Origin: Terriglobia bacterium
GTDB taxonomy: Bacteria > Acidobacteriota > Terriglobia > UBA7540
Length of the DNA: 46,238 nucleotides
Reading direction: 5' to 3'
Assembly: GCA_020073545.1 (NCBI GenBank)
Contig: JAIQEZ010000024.1
Span: 1-46,238, forward strand
Positions 10,368-10,949 of the stretch are shown one piece after another; the stretch's first letter is position 1, and each line of letters begins with the position of its first letter. Under the pieces are notes generated by a model, which worked only from the letters and a program-made list of their open reading frames with translations, did no database searches and was not told where the DNA came from. A program made the translations under genes and the position numbers.

Positions 10368-10949
10368 ATGGCCTGGATCAAAGTGATCGAACCCCAGGAA
10401 GCAACAGGGGAGTTGAAGCAGGAATACGATGCCGCCGTCCAGCGCGCCGGGAAAGTCTTCAACATCCTCAAGGTCCAGAGCCTGAATCCTGCCGCGCTGC
10501 AGGCGTCCATGCAGATGTATCGCACCACGATGTTTGGCCCTTCCGGCCTCTCGCGCGCCGAGCGCGAAATGCTGGCCACCGTGGTTTCCTGGGCCAATCA
10601 CTGCTTCTATTGAATCGAAGCTCACGGAGAGGATCTCCGTGCCGAATCGCACGATGAGCAACTGGCAGAGCACGTCAAGCACGACTACCGCCGCGCGAAG
10701 TTGACGCCGCGCCAGAAGGCCATGTGCCAATTCGCGGAGATGATGACGCGTGCCCCGGCGGCCCTGCGCGCCCAGCACCTCGAGACGCTGCGCCTGCACG
10801 GCTTGAGCGACCGCGACATCCTCGACGCCGTCGAAGTCATCGCTTACTTCAACTACATCAACCGCGTCGCCGACGCCCTCGGCATCGACCCCGAACCTGA
10901 AATGCAAAAAGCCTACGAGCGCTGGAAGTCGGGCTCGGATGCAAGCTGA
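10368..10949 (+). CDS. AhpD-like peroxidase-related selenoprotein (CxxU active site, in-frame UGA)
   Basis: The gene reads as 193 residues if the TGA at 10611-10613 is read as selenocysteine (residue 82). Both sides are in the same frame and both match the AhpD/carboxymuconolactone decarboxylase-like family of peroxidase-related enzymes. Before the TGA come GLSRAEREMLATVVSWANHCFY; after it, IEAHGEDLRAES, then KLTPRQKAMCQFAEMMTRAP and DAVEVIAYFNYINRVADALG. The family normally has CxxC at this place, with Cys79 here as the first member and UGA exactly at the second. A SECIS-like hairpin follows (10623-10641). Expected role: thiol- or selenol-dependent peroxide reduction in the cytoplasm. Alternative: a nonsense mutation giving two fragments, but the exact position and hairpin argue against that. 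A ribosome-binding site GGGAGG precedes the ATG. Confidence 0.88.
10623..10641 (+). promoter_or_regulatory. Candidate bacterial SECIS element
   Basis: A perfect 8-bp stem, CACGGAGA with TCTCCGTG, closes a three-base loop GGA. The loop starts 18 bases after the UGA (17 bases between). Bacterial SECIS elements lie in the coding region just after UGA, with a short stem and a G in the first loop positions at about this distance. All these points hold. SelB recognition itself is inference. Confidence 0.8.

Follow-up and report, generated by a model that had tools for sequence, protein, structure and literature searches.

A TGA stands in frame within a gene for an AhpD-like protein of a Terriglobia bacterium, at the codon of the second cysteine of the CxxC active site, and the question that this locus raises is whether the triplet ends the gene, is an error, or is read as an amino acid. 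The gene lies in the window, by which we mean the whole stretch of 46,238 nucleotides that was analysed (contig JAIQEZ010000024.1). We are highly confident that it encodes an AhpD-like selenoprotein, likely antioxidant, in which UGA is decoded as selenocysteine (Sec) via a hairpin just downstream. The features concerned are the following.

10354-10360, + strand: likely ribosome-binding site, a purine-rich stretch ahead of the ATG, judged by eye only
10368-10949, + strand: AhpD-like selenoprotein gene (TIGR01926, CMD/PF02627), 193 amino acids, Sec at residue 82
10602-10604, + strand: codon of C79, the partner Cys in the CxxU pair
10611-10613, + strand: TGA read as selenocysteine (U82), at a position occupied by TGA in the window and 80 other distinct loci
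10623-10641, + strand: bacterial SECIS-type hairpin of 8 bp with a GGA loop, within the bSECIS limits and marked by covariation and synonymous freezing

Read-through translation gave a gene that starts with ATG at 10368, ends with a TGA terminator at 10947-10949 and contains a single internal TGA, and the motif around the Sec site is N-H-C-F-Y-U-I-E-A-H. Standard ORF calling broke the gene into products of 81 (10368-10613) and 82 amino acids (10701-10949), reproducing the split that a preliminary description of this DNA had expected of gene callers. That description had also placed both halves in one frame, with TGA replacing the second Cys of CxxC (C79-F-Y-U82), which the read-through translation confirmed, and had recognized the family continuation past the TGA; the two halves indeed matched the TIGR01926 profile in order, at positions 1-81 and then 85-178. 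The joined protein scored 179.2 bits against this model, named 'peroxidase-related' (cut-off 81.8), and the halves apart scored 65 and 94 bits; the score with PF02627 was 55.5 bits (cut-off 23). Among the NCBIfam specific (seleno)protein equivalog models that the protein touched, none reached its cut-off: NF041238 (AhpD_rel_CFYUT) gave 84.7 bits over the C-terminal half of the model, below the cut-off of 175, and NF053654 (GroundWater_YciW (seleno)protein) gave 21.4 bits, below the cut-off of 310.

We examined 96 loci, six of them repeats of a contig already included, so that 90 distinct loci remained. Codon 82 is TGA in 81 of these, the window included, and TGC, TGT or TGG in the other nine. 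The survey of 250 genomes of the class supplied all but one of the TGA loci (80 of 81), spread over 75 genomes, and a Clostridia MAG supplied the remaining one; beyond the window there are thus 80 distinct TGA homologues, 79 of them from the class survey. The UGA forms occur in several Terriglobia subclades with differing SECIS loops and registers. When the protein was aligned with CxxC homologues, as the preliminary description had proposed, the UGA lined up with the catalytic Cys, including the Cys in homologues from the PDB.

The hairpin at 10623-10641 has the sequence CACGGAGA-GGA-TCTCCGTG, with a perfect 8-bp stem and a free energy of -11.0 kcal/mol. It starts after 9 nt from the UGA, and its loop starts after 17 nt, at the 18th base, exactly as previously described. 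The bSECIS model allows a loop of 3-9 nt with G in its first two positions, a stem of 4-16 bp, a spacing of 16-37 nt and an MFE of at most -7.5 kcal/mol (PMC13188914); the hairpin of the window falls within all of these limits, and 76 of the 81 sequences downstream of the TGA passed the model. Most commonly the stem has 6-8 bp and closes a loop of three nucleotides, GGA or GTT, 17 nt past the UGA, in agreement with the G[G/U] loop pattern, and this 17/3 form is absent from the Cys- and Trp-bearing homologues. An alternative stem, whose loop of 6 nt begins 24 nt past the UGA, is carried by families f13, f4 and part of f10; the best hairpin is in this other register, with 6-7 bp, at loci L054, L056, L059, L060, L061, L062, L075, L110 and L117.

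What supports the hairpin is conservation rather than energy: within a 56-nt stretch the local fold has no unusual stability (z = -1.1), and only five of the eight hairpin pairs are present in its MFE structure. One stem pair is G-C in 25 of 65 distinct rows and C-G in the other 40 (both partners altered in 25 cells); another has G-U in place of A-U, and the basal pair is open in 47 of the 65 rows. The covariation score of the stem was 0.165, compared with 0.073 +/- 0.008 after shuffling, and exceeded that of every one of the 500 shuffles and of every slid version, although the compensatory change concerns one base pair and probably goes back to few evolutionary events. Codon usage points the same way. 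H86, E88, D89, L90 and R91 each use a single codon throughout 15 close relatives, something true of only one of 59 invariant residues elsewhere, and G87 is encoded by GGA or GGG, either of which pairs in the stem.

The genome (5.28 Mb, 95.5% complete, a draft assembly of 261 contigs) contains all four genes for which the preliminary description had proposed a search, namely selA, selB, selC and selD, including the two, selB and selC, whose absence it had taken as grounds against the Sec reading. The tRNA-Sec gene scored 69.1 bits (cut-off 47) and was called tRNA-SeC with anticodon TCA by ARAGORN; SelA scored 571 bits, SelB 359 bits and SelD 388 bits (L018:1501-2427, G000:C19). The selD gene has an in-frame TGA of its own, in G-U-A-A-K, and a 2026 review gives UxxK as the motif of Sec-containing SelD (PMC13188914). 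The G-U-A-A-K of this genome fits the motif, which makes its SelD a probable selenoprotein as well. Across the survey, SelA was detected in 73 of the 75 TGA genomes and in 112 of the 175 others (E <= 1e-60; Fisher p = 1e-9, relatedness ignored), and SelB in 69 of 75 and 111 of 175, respectively (E <= 1e-60; p-values again ignore relatedness). Only one of the 75 TGA genomes, a draft that is 84% complete, lacks both proteins.

In a tree of the 90 rows, arbitrarily rooted and with some uncertain long branches, the clade of the window, which covers its own family and f8, holds Sec forms only. Family f9 is mixed: L064 (Cys), L057 (Trp, TGG) and L055 (Sec) fall together within a larger, mostly-Sec clade, and this nesting suggests that Sec was lost within the family. 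At L057 (G025:C29) the SECIS stem has decayed and the genome keeps SelA and SelB; L055 (G017), of the same genus, retains TGA and hairpin, and L064 (G008), of the same family, has Cys and no hairpin. Two genomes of one family carry two diverged UGA-bearing AhpD-like genes, adjacent and convergent (L051 and L065 in G174:C252; L053 and L066 in G210:C127). On one small contig (G160:C522), selA at 893-2239 (+) lies about 1.7 kb from a UGA-bearing AhpD-like gene at 3963-4535 (-). In the window, trpS and mnmG, both encoded on the opposite strand, neighbour the gene, and the adjoining mnmG is kept only in the nearest relative. The neighbours examined included no gene for AhpC or a peroxiredoxin, none of eight other read-through ORFs checked in the window had a redox-type Sec motif, and the sole Rfam match in the window at the gathering threshold was a tRNA-Gln.

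The residues E67, C79, Y81, U82 and H86 of the protein have the same spacing as the relays of PA0269 from Pseudomonas aeruginosa (E36, C48, Y50, C51, H55) and of Mycobacterium tuberculosis AhpD (E118, C130, H132, C133, H137) (PMC3141380), and Sec82 would therefore stand in place of Cys133 of the latter. An AlphaFold2 model (pLDDT 83) showed the all-helical AhpD fold, and its best match in the PDB was 6k40 from Deinococcus radiodurans (E = 1.6e-11, TM 0.72, 40% identity over 176 columns). Knowledge of the family leads us to assume that the position of Sec82 is that of the attacking residue.

Could the TGA have arisen from TGC or TGT through a fault in sequencing or assembly, the protein being an ordinary CxxC one? 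The assembly is a draft and Cys homologues do exist, but the codon is not a misread TGC, a reading that the preliminary description had set against its own, because TGA recurs at the same codon in 80 other loci from separate assemblies, nearly all with a SECIS-type hairpin; we reject an error as having a negligible probability. The two fragments obtained by ORF calling are also what a nonsense mutation would leave, with the gene a pseudogene or the source of a truncated 81-residue product. A dead gene, however, would gather other stops and frameshifts, whereas here the second half is conserved at the protein level and the stop always falls on the same codon for the same catalytic residue, so a broken gene is rejected as no less improbable than an error. 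Near-cognate suppression, with UGA read as another amino acid such as Trp, finds a precedent of sorts in the TGG of L057 and is slightly less far-fetched, yet still very unlikely. L057 has no stem and sits in a Sec clade beside a Cys form, the organism has the full Sec machinery, CxxC chemistry is impossible for Trp, and the gene itself ends in TGA; we reject this reading as well.

A different function is a more serious alternative than a different decoding. The protein may be a selenoprotein but, instead of a peroxidase, some other member of the AhpD/CMD superfamily, for example one that reduces disulfides, resembles a dehalogenase or senses redox state; the name of TIGR01926 says no more than 'peroxidase-related', the debrominase Bmp8 and sestrin are among the more distant relatives, and PA0269 is only a weak peroxidase (PMC3141380). 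All five relay residues are intact, however, and loss of the near Cys homologue DR_1765 renders D. radiodurans sensitive to H2O2, its CxxC mattering for complementation (PMC8945050). We regard a non-peroxidase function as possible but unlikely.

Under the favoured reading, that of a Sec-containing, likely antioxidant protein, the UGA at 10611-10613 would be decoded by SelB carrying Sec-tRNA(Sec), guided by the hairpin at 10623-10641; actual Sec insertion we infer. The product would be an AhpD-like thiol/selenol oxidoreductase with Sec82 at the attacking-Cys position of the Cys homologues and Cys79 as its resolving partner, giving a selenenyl-sulfide CxxU cycle in which Glu67, Tyr81 and His86 would complete the AhpD proton relay. 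The antioxidant role might consist of direct hydroperoxide reduction or of service as an adaptor for a peroxiredoxin; peroxidase activity, substrate and redox partner we likewise infer.

The preliminary description considered the protein one of a known kind in a possibly undescribed subgroup. The former part holds: a 2005 study reported AhpD-like CxxU selenoproteins from the Sargasso Sea (PMC1088965), and one of 2008 reported 299 CxxU sequences of 'AhpD-like 1' (COG2128) (PMC2398784). The latter was too strong, as TIGR01926 is already among the predicted CxxU selenoprotein families in the 2026 review (PMC13188914). A 2006 survey gives four selenoproteins of three families in Acidobacteria, and this survey was the only item in the literature searched that brought together AhpD, selenocysteine and Acidobacteria. 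A search for selenoproteins with 'Terriglob' returned no literature matches, and we found no description, in the literature searched, of the spread across Terriglobia or of the apparent replacements of Sec by Cys or Trp. Whether the Terriglobia hold a large, old, widespread and undescribed seleno-AhpD lineage, with Sec replaced by Cys or Trp and the hairpin decaying in one family-level group, is to our minds an evenly balanced proposition. The present results give a major soil phylum a further selenoprotein, well supported and with its SECIS, suggest that Terriglobia commonly rely on selenium for defence against peroxide, and make natural Sec, Cys and Trp variants available for testing routes of Sec loss.

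Compared with known systems, the protein has the C-F-Y-U site in common with NF041238 ('hypothetical protein 1'), but that model spans 357 positions and the score was well below its cut-off. M. tuberculosis AhpD and PA0269 share the Glu/Cys/(His or Tyr)/Cys/His relay and its spacing; in sequence they are distant, they have Cys for Sec, and M. tuberculosis AhpD differs in chain topology. DR_1765 (PDB 6k40), the nearest characterized Cys homologue, belongs to the same family and has the same fold, but carries CxxC rather than CxxU. The AhpD-like CxxU proteins of TIGR01926/COG2128 from the Sargasso Sea and GOS ('AhpD-like 1') fall in the same HMM family, likewise have Sec for the second CxxC cysteine, and have a SECIS directly downstream; the large published sets are marine metagenomic, whereas the present one comes from an Acidobacteriota clade, the class Terriglobia.
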